Below the pieces are notes generated by a model that did no database searches, was not told the DNA's origin, and saw only the letters and a list, made by a program, of their open reading frames with translations. The position numbers and the translations under genes were made by a program. A stretch of 64,000 bases of DNA, from positions 434,001 to 498,000 of the forward strand of contig NZ_JAMGSI010000001.1 in assembly GCF_023516715.1 (NCBI RefSeq), read 5' to 3'. Shown piece by piece: positions 34,204 through 41,941 of the stretch. This DNA comes from Akkermansia massiliensis (GTDB taxonomy: Bacteria > Verrucomicrobiota > Verrucomicrobiia > Verrucomicrobiales > Akkermansiaceae). Numbering within the stretch: the first letter of the stretch is position 1; every line of letters starts with the position of its first letter.

Positions 34204-34719
34204 TTAGTGGTTGCCGCAGCCGCAGCCCCCGTCCTTGTGATCGTGGTCGTGGTCGCAATTGCCGTCGCAATCGCAGCTTTCCTTGTCGCAGCTGCCGCCA
34301 CAGGAGCAGGAAGTCTGGGCGCTCATGGCGCGCTGCCGGGCTTCCTCGATTTCTTCCGGAGTGGGCGCACGGCCAAGGTCGATGGACATGCCCAGATAAT
34401 GATTGATGGTGTTCAGGAGTTCATCGATGGTCTGGCGGGCTTCCAGGAAGCCGCGGGCGGCATCGTTCTTGACAACGTTTTCACGCAGGGTATCGAACTT
34501 GGAGATTTCCTCTTCCGTGGGGGGCATGCCGGCCAAGTGCTTGTTGCGCAGTTCTTCTCCGTAGGCGTTTACTTCTTCAAAAAGCTTGGTTGCCTCCGGA
34601 TTCTGGAAAAAGAGGCCGATTTTTGCCTTGGAGGCCACAACCTGGTCTTCCTTGGCAAGCAGGTTGCAAAGGGCTTCCGTGGCGGCGCGCAGGTTGTCAT
34701 TGAGAACGGGGGTATTCAT
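34204..34719 (-). CDS. YlbF/YmcA-family protein with a Cys/His-rich C-terminal tail
   Basis: A 171-residue protein. Residues 1-135 form the helical YlbF/YmcA (DUF964) domain, beginning MNTPVLNDNLRAATEALCNL and containing AKIGLFFQNPEATKLFEEVN, which in Bacillus helps control RNase Y and development. The last ~35 residues are unusual: about ten Cys in Cys-x-Cys-type pairs and several His and Asp (SCSCGGSCDKESC, CDHDHDHK, CGCGNH). This tail could bind iron-sulfur, zinc or other metals. Bacillus Y-complex proteins carry an [4Fe-4S] cluster, so a redox or metal sensor role is plausible but is inference. A strong terminator follows. Confidence 0.85.
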   Translation of the reverse strand: MNTPVLNDNLRAATEALCNLLAKEDQVVASKAKIGLFFQNPEATKLFEEVNAYGEELRNKHLAGMPPTEEEISKFDTLRENVVKNDAARGFLEARQTIDELLNTINHYLGMSIDLGRAPTPEEIEEARQRAMSAQTSCSCGGSCDKESCDCDGNCDHDHDHKDGGCGCGNH

Positions 34720-34800: not shown

Positions 34801-34819
34801 TGCGGATTACAAATCCGAA
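34801..34819 (+). repeat. Left arm of a 19-bp inverted repeat (locus 1)
   Basis: TGCGGATTACAAATCCGAA. It is the exact reverse complement of 34972-34990 and is itself a near palindrome (CGGATT-ACA-AATCCG). Confidence 0.9.
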
Positions 34820-34910
34820 GTCAATACTACTTTTTCATATCAAATGCATTTCTCCAACTCTACCCATTATTTCCCCGGATATTCTTAACAAGAAGAATAT
34901 TTGTTAGAAA

Positions 34911-34939
34911 TTGTCATATATGCTTGAATATGATGAATA
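34911..34939 (+). promoter_or_regulatory. Candidate promoter inside inverted-repeat locus 1
   Basis: TTGTCA (34911-34916) and TGAATA (34934-34939) are 17 bases apart in an AT-rich stretch, pointing at the glycosyltransferase gene at 35017. The -10 is weak. Confidence 0.35.
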
Positions 34940-34971
34940 TTCTTCTTACATTCGCATTGTTGCCTATCTAG

Positions 34972-34990
34972 TTCGGATTTGTAATCCGCA
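34972..34990 (-). repeat. Right arm of a 19-bp inverted repeat (locus 1)
   Basis: TTCGGATTTGTAATCCGCA, the exact reverse complement of 34801-34819. The 152 bases between the arms are AT-rich and hold a candidate promoter and an internal hairpin (ATATTCTT/AAGAATAT). It lies 26 bases before the next gene. Confidence 0.9.
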
Positions 34991-35016
34991 CAATCCCACT
35001 TGTTGCTACCCAACCT

Positions 35017-36519
35017 ATGACAGGGAAAAATGATTCCATGGCTATGCTGGGGTGGAAAATCCCGCTGACGCTTCTTATCTGGTCCGTTATCGTGATTGGA
35101 GCGTGTTCGGATACCTCTCCCTTGTACTCCTTTTATCCATCTCCGGACCCTTCCATTTTTTTCATGTTCGGGCGGGGGCTGCTTCACGGGCTTCTCCCCT
35201 ATGTGGAAATGGCGGACAGCAAGGGGCCCCTGCTGGTTTGGATTTATTATGCCGCCGCGTGGATTGACGGGCATTCATTTGCCGGAATATTCCTCATTCA
35301 GTGCGTAACCCTTTTTACGACGCTTCTGCTGGCTTGCGGGACGGCGCGTTTTTATCTGTCACAACGCGGCAGCCTGCTGGCTTCCATGCTGTTGTGCCTG
35401 TTTCTGTTTGATTCGTTTCCCTTCCAGCGCGGGGGAGGGGTGGAGGAATTGTGCTGGCCGGGGATGGCGGCCGTGGTTTACGGGCTGGTCCGGTATTTCC
35501 GGATGCGGGACAGGCGCAGCCTGCTGTTTCTGTTCGGCACGGCCGGGGTATTTGCCGGGGCAGCCTCCATGATGAAGTTCTCCATAGCCTTTCCCGTGTG
35601 CGCTTTAGGCGGGGTTCTGTGCCTGTGGCTGTGGTGGAACGGGCGGAGAAAAGAAGCGGCGGTGGCTTTAGGGGTGGCGCTAGCCGGCTTCCTGGCCGTG
35701 GTTGTCCCCTGTTCGGCCTGGCTGGTATCCAACGGTGTTTGGAAAGAAGCGATGAATGAGTACCTGTTGTGCTCCGTGCGTTATGGAACGGTGTCCCAGG
35801 ATACCACATGGTGGGCCAGGCTGCTCAGGCCGGCTCCGGTCCGCTGCCTGTCCGACGTACTGATGTGGGTGGCCGTCATCTGGGCTCTGGCGATAGCGGG
35901 CTGGCGTCAATTAAAAACGCAAAAGGCGCTCCTCTTTACGGCCCTGCTGTATATCTTCTTCAAGGTGGAGATGTTCAGCGTGTACAACTACTATTACAAT
36001 TCCATCCTTTCACCCATGATGATCTGGGTGACTATCTTCTTTGTGGCCCGGGCGGAACGGCGCTTTTCCCTGTGCATGCCGCGGATGGCGGCCGCAACGC
36101 TGGCAATCGCCTGCCTCACGGGGACCGGAGTGGCTGCCGGGCTGACGGGCGCCGTCCGGAAAGGAGACTTTGTCTGGAATGGCAGGGAGTTTTATTCCCC
36201 CGCCGTCCGGGAACGGCTGGCCTCTTTTTCCGAAGCCTCCGTCCTGTATCTGGGCTGGCTGGACAGGGGCTTCGGCATTACCTGGGACTGGAAGCCGTGC
36301 GGAAGATACTGGTTCCTTCAAAACTTCCCGTCGGAGGAAATGGTCAGGGAGCAGTATGATTACATTGAGCAGGGTATACCGGACATCATCCACACCAGTT
36401 CACGGGATGATGATTCTTTTCTGCGGCAGCACGGCTATAAGCCTTTGATGCCGGAGCTGGACGGGGGATTCTGGTGCCGGGTGTCACAGGGGGACGGCGA
36501 GCCTTCCCCCGAAGAATAA
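35017..36519 (+). CDS. GT-C membrane glycosyltransferase (GT39/ArnT-like)
   Basis: A 500-residue protein with roughly ten to twelve membrane segments. The motif PYVEMADSKGPLLVWIYYAA near residues 66-85 is the first-loop D-x-K-(G/P)-P-L motif of GT39-type enzymes. SMMKFSIAFPVCALG and the Trp/Tyr-rich loops fit this superfamily. The C-terminal ~120 residues form a hydrophilic periplasmic domain. GT-C enzymes move a sugar from a polyprenyl-phosphate carrier onto a lipid, protein or polysaccharide on the outer face. The upstream GtrB-like enzyme at 26162 could make the donor. Its start is 26 bases after inverted-repeat locus 1, so expression may depend on that element. The N-terminus MTGKNDSMAMLGWKIPL could start at Met8 instead. 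Confidence 0.85.
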   Translation: MTGKNDSMAMLGWKIPLTLLIWSVIVIGACSDTSPLYSFYPSPDPSIFFMFGRGLLHGLLPYVEMADSKGPLLVWIYYAAAWIDGHSFAGIFLIQCVTLFTTLLLACGTARFYLSQRGSLLASMLLCLFLFDSFPFQRGGGVEELCWPGMAAVVYGLVRYFRMRDRRSLLFLFGTAGVFAGAASMMKFSIAFPVCALGGVLCLWLWWNGRRKEAAVALGVALAGFLAVVVPCSAWLVSNGVWKEAMNEYLLCSVRYGTVSQDTTWWARLLRPAPVRCLSDVLMWVAVIWALAIAGWRQLKTQKALLFTALLYIFFKVEMFSVYNYYYNSILSPMMIWVTIFFVARAERRFSLCMPRMAAATLAIACLTGTGVAAGLTGAVRKGDFVWNGREFYSPAVRERLASFSEASVLYLGWLDRGFGITWDWKPCGRYWFLQNFPSEEMVREQYDYIEQGIPDIIHTSSRDDDSFLRQHGYKPLMPELDGGFWCRVSQGDGEPSPEE

Positions 36520-37009: not shown

Positions 37010-37030
37010 CGGATTTCCAATCCGGAGACA
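37010..37030 (+). repeat. Left arm of a 21-bp inverted repeat (locus 2)
   Basis: Starts with CGGATTTCCAATCCG and ends with GAGACA (21 bases). It is the exact reverse complement of 37275-37295. Confidence 0.92.
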
Positions 37031-37033
37031 AGC

Positions 37034-37063
37034 TATAAATTTGAAAAAAAGCATTTAATACAA
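37034..37063 (-). promoter_or_regulatory. Candidate promoter inside inverted-repeat locus 2, pointing left
   Basis: On the minus strand TTGTAT (37058-37063) and TTTATA (37034-37039) are 18 bases apart. In the given orientation it points away from the autotransporter; inversion between the repeats would turn it toward that gene. Confidence 0.4.
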
Positions 37064-37274
37064 AATTATTTGGACCATAGACAGAAAATTTGAATGGACG
37101 GAAGACGTGCATTCGGGAAAGAAACAGATGGGAATTTTTCTATTCTTCCTGTTGCCATCAGGATTTTTCAAGGAACCAAAAAGCTTGTCGTCAAAATGTT
37201 ATAGGTTAGTTGCATTGATATTATTTCCCGTTCCAGGGATGGAGCCTTCTTTCAAGCCGTTGGCGCATGGGCCC

Positions 37275-37295
37275 TGTCTCCGGATTGGAAATCCG
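37275..37295 (-). repeat. Right arm of a 21-bp inverted repeat (locus 2)
   Basis: Starts TGTCTC and ends CGGATTGGAAATCCG, the exact reverse complement of 37010-37030. The segment between the arms is 244 bases and AT-rich. It lies 209 bases before the autotransporter start. Confidence 0.92.
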
Positions 37296-37504: not shown

Positions 37505-40500
37505 ATGAGACTACATCTTCCTTCCTCTTTGCTCCGCTACGTGCTTGCGAGCCTGTTCATCTGCACCTTCCCGGCCGCATCCGGTGCGGACTACACGGTG
37601 AACAACACCCAGTCCGCCATGCCGGGCAGCAACCTGTACGGCACATTGGAAGAATTGAGGGCGTCCGGTTTGCTGCGTGCCAACGACACGGTTGTCCTGC
37701 ATAACGACGACTCCACGCTGACAGGAGGCCTGAATCTTCTCATTAACGTTCAGTCCGACAACACGGCGGCAGCGCGCACGCTGGATCTGGCTGGGCTGGG
37801 AACAACTCCCATGTTTTTCCTGAAGAAAGGAGACCATGGCGCTGACATGAATTCCATCATCTGGGAGAATGCGGGCAACCGGGTTCTGCGTGTGGAGGGA
37901 TTTGGCAGCAATGCCACTCTGAATCTTACCGGAGCGGTCACGTTCCGCAACAATACGGGAATCTATGATGATTCCACCGCTCCGGGCGGCGGCGCGATTG
38001 CCATTCAGGGTCAAGGTCTCGCTTCAGTCTCGCTGGATGACAATGCCGTTTTCACCGGAAATTACGCATCTTCCGCAAGCGGAGAGGTTAGAGGAGGCGC
38101 AGTTCTGGCGTTCTCCAACGACGCCCGGATCACTCTGGGCAACGGCGCCGTTTTCCATGCCAACCATGTTTTGGCGTCAGACAAAGCAGGCGGCGGGGGC
38201 GGCGCAATGTTTACCAAGGGCGGTTCCTCCTCCATTGAAATAGGTGATGACGCCACATTCACGGACAACTATGTCCAGGCTGGCAAGTCCAGCTACGGAG
38301 GAGCGATAGGCGCCGATAGAAACGCCACCTCCATTACCCTGGGAGACCGCGCGACTTTCAGCGGCAACCATATTTCCACCTCGGCAGACGGAGCAGCCAG
38401 TGAAGGGGGGGCGATCAGCACCTACATCACGATTAGAGACGCCTCCGTCACACTGGGAGACAGAGCCGTCTTCACCGGGAATTACATCTTGGCCGCCGGA
38501 ACGGGAAAAGGGGCCGGCGGGGCGGTTGCGGTGCGGGCAAATGGAGGCCCTGCATCCCTCACCGTTGGGGCGGGTGCAAGCTTCACGGGCAACTATATCT
38601 CCGCGTCATCCGGTGACGGAGGTGCCATCTGGATGTCTTCAGGGGGGGCCTGCACTCTGGGAGCCAACGTTTCCTTCACCGGAAATTACATTCAGGCGTC
38701 TTCCGGAAGTGGCGGAGCGATTTACCTGAAGAATCAGCAGCTGACCATTCGGGACGGGGCGAATTTCACGAACAATTACGCGCCCACGGCAGGGGGAGCC
38801 ATCCTGATCAACAATTTCGGCACCAACGCCGCCCAGCAATTCCTGGCGCAGACCCACGACGTTCTTTTCAGCGGCAATATGACAGGGGGAACCTTCACGC
38901 GCAACGATAACGGAACGTTTACCGTAGACGGGGGAACAGCCAACGCCATCCATGTTGAAAGGTTAGGCTCTTTGCAGTTGGCGGCCGGAGAAGGACGGAA
39001 CATCCAGTTTGACGACCCGATCACCTCAGGAACGGACTACGCAATAACGCTCGCGATCAACCGGTATACGGATGACAATGGGACTGATCACGACACCTCC
39101 GGCACGGTCGTCTTCAGCGGAACACGCTATCAGGGTACGGACGCCCATCTGGTTGCCAGCCGTTACAACAATTTCCGGGGAAAAACCACTGTATACGGAG
39201 GTACGCTGGAACTCAGGGACGGGGTCGTTTTCGGCCGCACGGGGAGCATGACGGACACGGGAACCTCCTTTACGCTTAATGCCGGAGCCACTCTTCGAAG
39301 CAAAGGCGCCGTCAGCGAGATCAATGCCGCCTCGATCGTTCTCAACGGCACGGTAGACACCGAAGGCACGCTCCTGCTGAACGGAAACGTCACAGCTTCC
39401 GACGCAATGCTCAAAACCGGACAGGGAGTCCTTGACCTGAGGAATACCGGAACCAATCTGTTCACGAACGGAGTTGCGCTCAACGAAGGCAGCATCCTGA
39501 TTAACGACATGGAACAGATTCGGACCGGCTCAGGCGCGTACATCACAGGTTCCGGCACACTGGACATCCGGTCCGCAGGCACCGTAACCCTCCCGGATTC
39601 GCTGGCCGGATTTGGCGGAACCATTGCCCTGACTGATACCCGGCTCCGTCCGGACGCCACAGGACAAACCGTGCTCGGCACCGCAACCCTGCGGCTCGGA
39701 AGCGGCTCCGAACTCTCCGTCGCGGAAAATTTTTCCATCAGCAAGCTGCATCTGGCCGGAGGAACGCTTACCGTCCAGGTGGATGGTGACGCTTCCCGGC
39801 TGGAACACCAGCTCTCCGTCTCCGGCAGTCTTGACATCACGTCGGCATCCACGCTGGCCGTCTCCGGTCTGAAAGACAGTCTGGACCACATAGCTCCCCA
39901 GCCGGGCTTCCTGGACCGCGATCTTCAGGAACTGGCTCTGGACGGCACCATCAACGCGGACGCCCTGCTGGTGGTACAAGCCGGGAACGTCGCGAATACA
40001 ACTCTTCTGGACTTGGTGGATGCCGATACGGGCGAAGCCATCACCGGCGGCGAGGAACGCGAAGTTACCTATCAGGATACCGTTACCGCGACCTACAGCT
40101 ACATTGCCGTAGCCGGCACCAATGAGCACAGCGGCCAGACGGGGATCCATCTCACCTACGGACTCAAGGAATTGAACATCCATGATGGGAAAACCTGGGT
40201 TCTGGACGCTCCGGCCGATCCGGACAGCGACCGGACGCTCATCGCCCGGATTACAGGCGGCGGCGCGCTGCAGCTGAATAGTGACGCGGCCGGCATCACC
40301 ATCACCTCCGCCACGAGCCACACGGGGGGAACCCTCATCAATTCCGGCCTGGTCACTGCCGGAGCGGACAACCTCTTCAGCGCCGGAATCCTGGAGGTCA
40401 AGGAAGGTACAACATTTGACACGGCCGCCACCGCACAAACCAACAGTAAAGGGTTTATTCTGCAAGGCTTGCTCAAGGGCGGCCAGGCATTCTCCAACAC

Positions 40501-41941
40501 GGACGCCATGTATGTCTTCACCAGCGCGCAGGTGGAATCGGCGCTTGCCAACACCGGAACGCTCCTATTGGCCAATACATCGGGCACAGGGCAGGACTTC
40601 CAGCTTTCGGGAGGCCTGAAGGGCGACGGAGGGCATGTAGCCTTTGAAGGAAGCGGCCGTGACACATTGAAGCTCGGCTCCCTCTCCGGATCGCAGGCCT
40701 TTACCATGAACATCAACCTGGCCGCCGGAACAAGCGACCGCATCGCCATCGCCGGGGAGGCTTCCGGCACGCACACGGTTCATTTCATCCTGCAAGGCGG
40801 CATTCCCTCCTCCCCGTCCTTCATACACGACATGATCACATGGGACAGTCTGGCGGAAGACAGTAATGCGGCAACGCTCTTTACCGGAACGCTTGATGCG
40901 GGTTTTTACTCCTACGGCCTTAAACTCAACGCAGCAGGCAATGGATACGACCTGTCGCCGGAGGGCTACAACAACCTGGGCGGCGTACTGCTCAATGTGC
41001 TTGGCTGCATGAGTACGGGATGGTTTGAACAGCTTGACACCCTCTCCAAACGCATGGGAGAGCTGCGCATGGGAGCGGACTTTTACAGGCAGCAGGACCA
41101 ACAGGCCAGGAACGCCGGAGAGGCGCCCAGGGGGCACTACTGGGCGCGCACGGCTTCCGGACGCACGGACACGGACCTGGGCATCGCCGGAGTATGCGGC
41201 TTTACGGAATACCAGTATGGGGCGGACAGCGGCGCGGACTGGATTGTTGCATCCGGGAGAAACAGCATGCTGGCTGCCGGTCTCTTCGGAGGATATCGCC
41301 GGAGTGACCGCCGCTTCCATGACGGCTGGGGAAGCAAGGGCAGCACGGACAGCGGTTACGGAGGCCTTTACGCCTCATGGCTGCACAGCAGGGGGTGGTT
41401 TGCGGACGCGGTTCTCAAGGGAATGAGCTACAATGCCGCATGGAGCGCGGTCCAGCCCGGGGGCACGGAACGTGGCGGCTATGACAACTGGGGATTGGGA
41501 ATGAGCATGGAAGCCGGGCGGCAGTGGAGCAGCGCCGGAGGATGGTTCCTGGAACCCTCCGTGCAAATCGCATGGCTCCATTCCGGTTCCACGCATATCG
41601 TCACGAACCAGGGCCTGGAGGTGGCGGGAAGCGCAGCCGACGTCTGGCAATTTGCCGGACGCCTGCGAGCCGGACGCACATGGAGCGTCAACGGAGGCAG
41701 GCAGCTGGTGCAGGGCTACGTGAAAACTGGTGTTACGCAGCAGGCAAGCAATGGCGGTGAAGTAAAGGCCGCCGGCAATCAGTGGCGTCCGAATACGGAT
41801 GGAACCCGCGGCATGGTTGGCTGCGGCGTAGCATGGCAGCTCAGCGCCCGCGATCAGGTGCACCTGGACTACGAATATGTCTACGGAGACAAATATGATC
41901 GTCCCTGGACGATCAATTTGGGATATACGCGGAGCTTTTAG
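37505..41941 (+). CDS. Pmp-like autotransporter (type V secretion) surface protein
   Basis: A 1478-residue outer-membrane autotransporter. A signal peptide covers residues 1-27 (LRYVLASLFICTFPAASG). The passenger, about residues 28-1170, is a right-handed beta-helix. Between residues 160 and 460 it has about nine alternating units of GGA(I/V/M) and F(T/S/H)xN, such as GGAIAIQG with FTGNYASS and GGAIGADR with FSGNHIST, the hallmark of chlamydial Pmp proteins. The C-terminal ~290 residues form the beta-barrel (starting near MGELRMGADFYRQQDQQARN), ending INLGYTRSF with the usual terminal Phe. It is probably surface exposed and involved in adhesion or shielding. The gene follows inverted-repeat locus 2, so expression may vary. 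A clear terminator follows. The flanks hold aspC and IS remnants, which suggests acquisition or rearrangement. Confidence 0.95.
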   Translation: MRLHLPSSLLRYVLASLFICTFPAASGADYTVNNTQSAMPGSNLYGTLEELRASGLLRANDTVVLHNDDSTLTGGLNLLINVQSDNTAAARTLDLAGLGTTPMFFLKKGDHGADMNSIIWENAGNRVLRVEGFGSNATLNLTGAVTFRNNTGIYDDSTAPGGGAIAIQGQGLASVSLDDNAVFTGNYASSASGEVRGGAVLAFSNDARITLGNGAVFHANHVLASDKAGGGGGAMFTKGGSSSIEIGDDATFTDNYVQAGKSSYGGAIGADRNATSITLGDRATFSGNHISTSADGAASEGGAISTYITIRDASVTLGDRAVFTGNYILAAGTGKGAGGAVAVRANGGPASLTVGAGASFTGNYISASSGDGGAIWMSSGGACTLGANVSFTGNYIQASSGSGGAIYLKNQQLTIRDGANFTNNYAPTAGGAILINNFGTNAAQQFLAQTHDVLFSGNMTGGTFTRNDNGTFTVDGGTANAIHVERLGSLQLAAGEGRNIQFDDPITSGTDYAITLAINRYTDDNGTDHDTSGTVVFSGTRYQGTDAHLVASRYNNFRGKTTVYGGTLELRDGVVFGRTGSMTDTGTSFTLNAGATLRSKGAVSEINAASIVLNGTVDTEGTLLLNGNVTASDAMLKTGQGVLDLRNTGTNLFTNGVALNEGSILINDMEQIRTGSGAYITGSGTLDIRSAGTVTLPDSLAGFGGTIALTDTRLRPDATGQTVLGTATLRLGSGSELSVAENFSISKLHLAGGTLTVQVDGDASRLEHQLSVSGSLDITSASTLAVSGLKDSLDHIAPQPGFLDRDLQELALDGTINADALLVVQAGNVANTTLLDLVDADTGEAITGGEEREVTYQDTVTATYSYIAVAGTNEHSGQTGIHLTYGLKELNIHDGKTWVLDAPADPDSDRTLIARITGGGALQLNSDAAGITITSATSHTGGTLINSGLVTAGADNLFSAGILEVKEGTTFDTAATAQTNSKGFILQGLLKGGQAFSNTDAMYVFTSAQVESALANTGTLLLANTSGTGQDFQLSGGLKGDGGHVAFEGSGRDTLKLGSLSGSQAFTMNINLAAGTSDRIAIAGEASGTHTVHFILQGGIPSSPSFIHDMITWDSLAEDSNAATLFTGTLDAGFYSYGLKLNAAGNGYDLSPEGYNNLGGVLLNVLGCMSTGWFEQLDTLSKRMGELRMGADFYRQQDQQARNAGEAPRGHYWARTASGRTDTDLGIAGVCGFTEYQYGADSGADWIVASGRNSMLAAGLFGGYRRSDRRFHDGWGSKGSTDSGYGGLYASWLHSRGWFADAVLKGMSYNAAWSAVQPGGTERGGYDNWGLGMSMEAGRQWSSAGGWFLEPSVQIAWLHSGSTHIVTNQGLEVAGSAADVWQFAGRLRAGRTWSVNGGRQLVQGYVKTGVTQQASNGGEVKAAGNQWRPNTDGTRGMVGCGVAWQLSARDQVHLDYEYVYGDKYDRPWTINLGYTRSF

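Follow-up and report, generated by a model that had tools for sequence, protein, structure and literature searches.

An Akkermansia inverton upstream of a glycosyltransferase gene is likely to work as a split-promoter switch

The invertible capsule promoters of Bacteroides are turned by Mpi or Tsr-type tyrosine recombinases, and the whole promoter lies inside the inverted segment. Serine invertases of the Hin/Gin type control a gene by inversion between short inverted sites, and the circle junctions of insertion sequences (e.g., IS911 and IS30) carry hybrid promoters, in which a -35 and a -10 element are joined by recombination. The closest described elements are the invertons of Akkermansia, whose repeat, CGGATT..AATCCG, is a published motif that the available text of PMC13343947 credits to Jiang et al. 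2019. PMC13343947 also demonstrates flipping at cps1, a capsule locus, by long reads, restriction (PCR) digests and qPCR, and, according to the accessible part of PMC11892184, ATCC BAA-835 holds the same inverton group (group 138), with changes of orientation over mouse generations near autotransporters.

We analysed a window of 64,000 nucleotides from the genome of Akkermansia massiliensis (G000 below), in which an element with this repeat (the target) precedes a glycosyltransferase gene. It resembles the Akkermansia invertons in repeat, genus, segment length (similar) and closeness to surface-glycan or autotransporter genes. As far as the available portions of PMC13343947 and PMC11892184 describe those elements, it differs from them in its YlbF/PMT_2 locus, its lone edge -35 with an outside -10, and its pair-specific central NNN. 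Like the Bacteroides capsule promoters, it belongs to a pattern of intergenic promoter inversion for surface glycans with many loci per genome, but its promoter appears to be split by the recombination site, and the site sequence is different. We give a probability of roughly 0.78 to the reading that the target is an Akkermansia inverton working as a split-promoter switch. The parts of the locus are as follows.

34803 to 34817, no strand: left recombination site, core CGGATT-ACA-AATCCG
34974 to 34988, no strand: right recombination site, core CGGATT-TGT-AATCCG
34818 to 34973, no strand: invertible segment, 156 bp, in the opposite orientation in G009 and the same in G007
34819 to 34824, minus strand: -35 element TTGACT at the left end of the segment, pointing left, away from the glycosyltransferase in the window orientation
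34989 to 34994, plus strand: CACAAT, a weak -10-like hexamer of the fixed right flank, its role presumed
35017 to 36519, plus strand: GT-C/PMT_2 glycosyltransferase (PF13231), 500 aa, predicted target gene of the switch
34204 to 34719, minus strand: divergent gene of the YlbF/YmcA family (PF06133), 171 aa

The first-pass annotation had drawn attention to 19-bp arms here, and these are indeed exact reverse complements (34801-34819 and 34972-34990) with 152 bases between them, the right arm ending 26 bases before the ATG at 35017; the glycosyltransferase that it had placed downstream is confirmed by the PMT_2 match (PF13231). The true unit within each arm, however, is a 15-bp near-palindrome, CGGATT-NNN-AATCCG, and only this core is usually common to the two members of a pair. 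That the match at the target extends by two bases beyond each end of the core, to 19 bp in all, is probably due to chance, because outside the core the paired arms of 39 pairs agree at about background, with a weak excess at a few inside positions.

These sites form a large family. Within the window, matches to CGGATTTGTAATCCG with up to 2 mismatches number 6 (4 places, 2 of them matched on both strands) against a shuffle mean of 0.13, and 0 of 100 shuffles reach 6. The whole 3.28-Mb genome contains 65 CGGATTNNNAATCCG sites, with 0 hits for the reversed control pattern, and at least 39 site pairs of the target's kind. When neighbouring sites were compared (up to 1 mismatch, 90-800 bp apart, in the stretches fetched from this genome), the central NNN was reverse-complementary in 39 of 41 cases and equal in 0 of 41, and the two exceptions belong to different pairs or to no pair. 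This count was made without demanding matching loops, whereas the pair lists used for the loop and -35 counts required them. The same complementarity is present in G009 (40/42) and G010 (33/34). The loop is not a unique address, as TGT is used by three perfect pairs in the genome of the window. Such pair-specific central identity would fit a recombinase that needs a matched crossover region. Among the 76 genus genomes searched, 14 hold 22-88 sites, three others 5-11, and the rest 0-4.

The annotation had also offered a REPIN-like repeat or MITE, which would be a mobile unit whose terminal repeats are palindromic by accident. The many arm copies across the genome are what one would expect of it, as is G045, where the sites mostly have one loop and one spacing and five fetched copies are alike. 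In the window's genome, however, a check for similar pairs turned up abundant sites and no common inserted unit: the segments differ between loci, and the target segment has a single weak relative (71% identity) elsewhere. Loops vary between pairs and agree within them, and arm loops are inverted and never direct repeats. As regards the direct target-site duplication typical of MITE ends, a comparison confined to the loops gave equal ones in 0 of 41 neighbouring pairs. Orthologous segments, moreover, are inverted in place with their flanks unchanged (see below). We consider a mobile repeat very improbable.

Several unusual arrangements were seen among the sites. The 71% relative, the only other one found in the genome, sits at G000:C1:136974-137552 (L041), where two adjacent invertons have 238 bp between their facing sites. 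At G000:C2:344785-344812 and G009:C1:1359426-1359453, one arm consists of two overlapping site copies in tandem. Most of the 88 sites of G045 (e.g., L268-L272) have the loop CAA/TTG and are paired at 180 bp, and the five alike pairs that were fetched carry TTGACAG against one site; equal loops in this genome could permit recombination between distant copies. In G067, L276 and L278 are similar invertons with alike outer flanks, loops ATA and ACA, and oppositely oriented segments.

Comparison between genomes bears directly on the claim that the segment is invertible. The region orthologous to the target runs collinear to the window in G007. In G009 (C1:2089411-2089597) only its flanks do so: the segment is turned around precisely at the arms, and its identity to that of the window is 80% after inversion and 59% as it stands. 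Both arms in G009 carry AGG/CCT in place of ACA/TGT, so that the two have changed together. Flank-matched ortholog comparisons among G000, G009 and G010 gave 39 same, 12 inverted and 18 unclear out of 69; in 13 of the unclear ones, the loops and mostly also the segments are different, and they look as if whole cassettes had been exchanged. Since the 69 comparisons among three genomes are not independent, the count to be used is the one grouped by locus, according to which 7 of 28 comparable loci, the target and six others, occur in both orientations, these being differences between species-level genomes and not within one culture. The contigs of G008 end at the outer edges of both arms at the target locus, which resembles the behaviour of assemblies at mixed orientations. 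With a published inverton repeat and a segment turned exactly at the arms in G009, the word invertible in the annotation was well chosen; the pair-specific loops together with inversion at the arms at 7 of 28 loci support an invertible element, and do not support a MITE or REPIN.

The same data weigh against a reading without recombination, in which the paired sites act as hairpins in RNA or DNA, either as transcription terminators or as a long-range stem, and the loops simply reflect base pairing. Each site can indeed fold into a hairpin, with complementary loops within a pair, but complementarity stops at the 15-bp core, the segments between the arms are inverted at those 7 of 28 loci, and inversion of the same inverton class has been shown experimentally at cps1, as the available text of PMC13343947 reports. 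Hairpins without recombination are thus hardly credible as the explanation.

The layout around the sites suggests how inversion might act on transcription. A TTGAC motif (at least 4 of 5 bases) lies exactly 2 nt inside an arm, pointing outwards, in 33 of the 39 pairs, and at 23 other offsets it occurs in 0-6 of 39. At the same offset it is present in 64 of 82 pairs of G009, G010 and G002 together, a count in which the 9 pairs of G002 are not all independent because its contigs C1 and C18 seem to represent one region twice (its contamination is 6%), and from which single sites and some contig ends of G010 and G002, as well as two G009 places, were left out. Pairs without a clear TTGAC number 6 of 39 in the genome of the window and 18 of 82 in the other three. 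On the other side of the arm, in the fixed flank, TA is found at outside position 2 (1 nt beyond the arm) in 28 of 78 arms; the counts at 13 other positions are 1-9 of 78, and the background TA frequency is 3.4%. It is present in 27 of the 39 pairs and absent from 12, only one pair has it on both sides, and a -10 of the form TA(nnnT) is common at this place. The spacing TTGACN-N-15-N-TA amounts to 17 bp, which places the arm inside the promoter spacer. The recurrence of TTGAC inside and TA outside thus points to a -35 on the mobile segment and a -10 on the fixed flank.

In comparisons with a callable -35 side, this side was exchanged in 10 of the 10 scored as inverted and unchanged in 38 of the 38 scored as the same. 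TTGAC has a conservation of 0.98 (whole segment 0.86), a figure that is inflated because it was the TTGAC match that identified the -35 side. The layout recurs in more distant genomes (5/5 fetched pairs in G045, 3/3 in G057 and 1/3 in G067), and several ends in G067, G047 and G003 carry TTGCA or TTGCG in place of TTGAC. Sides with the -10 face a gene in 22/28 cases and the others in 31/50, a difference that is not significant (Fisher p 0.21). If TTGAC and TA do serve as a working promoter, the rule predicts that 10 invertons in the genome of the window are ON and 16 are OFF, with 13 not callable.

At the target itself, the edge TTGACT is conserved as attgactt in G007 and G009. After inversion it would stand 16 bp from CACAAT, which agrees with TATAAT at 4 of 6 positions and whose right-flank bases (CACAATCCCG) are the same in G007 and G009. 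TA is at the standard position on neither side of the target, and nothing in its left flank is recognisable as a -10. Because TTGACT faces away from the glycosyltransferase in the window, and CACAAT is in the right flank only, we predict the OFF state for the window orientation and the ON state for G009, in which the -35 points toward the gene.

The annotation had instead proposed a conventional invertible promoter for a surface glycan, with TTGTCA-17-TGAATA between the arms. On this reading a complete promoter, that one or another, lies within the segment and is directed at the gene in one of the two orientations. The segment, rich in AT, does contain these hexamers (TTGTCA at 34911-34916 and TGAATA at 34934-34939, 17 bases between them), and the accessible part of PMC11892184 describes Akkermansia invertons as having a promoter motif. 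But a sigma-70-type consensus scan of the region does not list the pair (1 promoter-like site, compared to 1.2 expected in shuffles), and it is not conserved in the orthologous G009 segment. The pair is therefore probably not the working promoter, and an internal promoter as the driver of the glycosyltransferase was rejected for want of support from the scan. Furthermore, the signal common to 33 of the 39 pairs is the edge TTGAC, which leaves no room for a -10 inside. The available portion of PMC11892184 also has the Akkermansia motif missing its promoter criterion, and a promoter with one half outside the segment would be expected to miss it. What survives of the proposal is an invertible element upstream of a glycosyltransferase, with a lone -35 at its edge where a complete promoter had been supposed; a complete internal promoter we regard as unlikely.

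The element could also be a fossil at this locus, with inversion still possible and the sites kept, but with a switch that no longer drives the glycosyltransferase. This would agree with the lack of a TA -10 on either side, and with a gene order in which the glycosyltransferase adjoins the YlbF gene in only 3 other genomes examined (G007, G009 and G008), G010 having a single site. Yet neither target core has a mismatch, G007 and G009 have both conserved TTGACTT and the right flank, and in G009 the segment lies the other way round, so that we think loss of function rather improbable.

The surroundings of the target vary among genomes. A scan for the glycosyltransferase across genome contigs led to one locus, in A. 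muciniphila CSUN-56 (89% identical, the only named match). In G044, the equivalent place has a site pair but no glycosyltransferase within the stretch read, G010 has its single site (L206, G010:C6:81074) where the window has inverton and glycosyltransferase, and no site occurs within 700 bp of the YlbF start in G001, G004, G005, G006, G012 and G046. From these three kinds of arrangement, the arms seem to mark the edges of variable cassettes. The flank after the single site in G010 resembles the flank beyond the right site in G044.

The window contains a second inverton (37010-37295), composed of the following parts.

37010 to 37024, no strand: left site, core CGGATT-TCC-AATCCG
37281 to 37295, no strand: right site, core CGGATT-GGA-AATCCG, then TAATTT
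37505 to 41941, plus strand: autotransporter (PF03797), 1478 aa, predicted target gene of the second inverton

TAATTT is on the gene side and the better -35 (TTGTC) on the far side, and the window orientation is predicted to be OFF. G009 has the same orientation at this element.

As for the enzyme, the genome of the window has 13 matches to PF00589 (tyrosine recombinase) and 0 to PF00239 (resolvase), the control for the latter giving a signal in 10 of 14. In this it differs from the Hin/Gin systems, and a serine resolvase as invertase was rejected because none was found in this genome. An Xer-like recombinase (G000:C1:366583-367548) was rejected as well, since a close match (at least 88%) is present in only 6 of the 14 site-rich genomes. 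Orthologs of the recombinase at G000:C1:576962-578053 with at least 92% identity are confined to site-rich genomes, being present in 12 of these 14 (with its own included) and in none of the 62 others, a distribution that shared ancestry alone could yield. G002 and G045, the site-rich genomes that lack such an ortholog, have relatives with about 46-47% identity, whose orthology to the candidate is not decided by the recombinase-family tree; this tree, from which L249, L260 and L264 (no usable protein) and 7 of 20 loci of one fetched set were left out, is weakly resolved at the depths that matter. Of the catalytic residues, the candidate protein retains R, K, R, H and Y, with Asp at the position of the first His of HxxR in Xer proteins.

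In the candidate's family, a site (up to 1 mismatch) is present in the fetched flank of 14 of 40 loci from other genomes (reversed control 0/40), and at several of these TTGACT-N-site stands directly upstream of the recombinase gene. For the candidate together with its orthologs and its relatives in the window's genome (L089, L090, L092, L093 and L139-L147), a site within about 1.5 kb was found in 0 of 13 loci, and for other recombinases (L081-L088, L091 and L124-L137, one gene counted twice) in 0 of 23. Since sites accompany 14 of 40 family loci but 0 of 13 in the candidate's group, the family is a good invertase candidate, and the best one in this analysis, while the particular gene is less certain. 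Tyrosine recombinases of one family with CGGATTNNNAATCCG sites (up to 1 mismatch) nearby, mostly just upstream, are encoded at L230, L232, L234, L237-L242, L251, L255, L257, L259 and L265, and at L240, L259 and L265 these sites form an inverted pair. It is possible that recombinases with nearby sites switch themselves.

Taken as a split-promoter switch, the target would operate as follows. A site-specific recombinase, most likely a tyrosine recombinase, would recombine the two 15-bp sites and thereby invert the 156-bp segment between them. The segment would carry its -35 (TTGACT) against one site, the site itself would fill the promoter spacer, and the -10 would be contributed by the fixed flank. 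With the -35 end facing the glycosyltransferase, TTGACT-16 bp-CACAAT would be assembled and the gene transcribed; in the window orientation the -35 would face the other way and the gene would be OFF. Assembly of a promoter from a -35 and a -10 by recombination is also what happens at IS911 and IS30 circle junctions, but theirs arises from closure of a transposon circle, whereas that of the target would arise from reversible inversion in place. The class of element is already known. Neither the split or hybrid promoter layout nor pair-specific loops turned up in the searchable literature on invertible elements, or on Akkermansia or Verrucomicrobia transcription start sites, invertons and recombinases, Jiang et al. 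2019 being beyond that search.

At about even odds, we would extend the mechanism to a genus-wide split-promoter regulon, in which the site serves as the sigma-70 spacer (TTGACN-N-[15-bp site]-N-TAnnnT), the 3-bp loop is a within-pair address, and a tyrosine recombinase family operates the switches and may switch itself. Every inversion would then rejoin one mobile -35 to either of two fixed flanks, and the several recombinases with the same -35 and site layout before their own genes would come under the same rule.

If the promoter is split by the site, ON and OFF states could become readable from sequence alone at many loci of a gut symbiont. Motif searches for whole promoters inside invertons would miss such a layout, which would fit the weak promoter score of the Akkermansia motif in the accessible part of PMC11892184. 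The candidate enzyme, in turn, offers a way into the question of whether a single recombinase governs the surface state of an entire cell.
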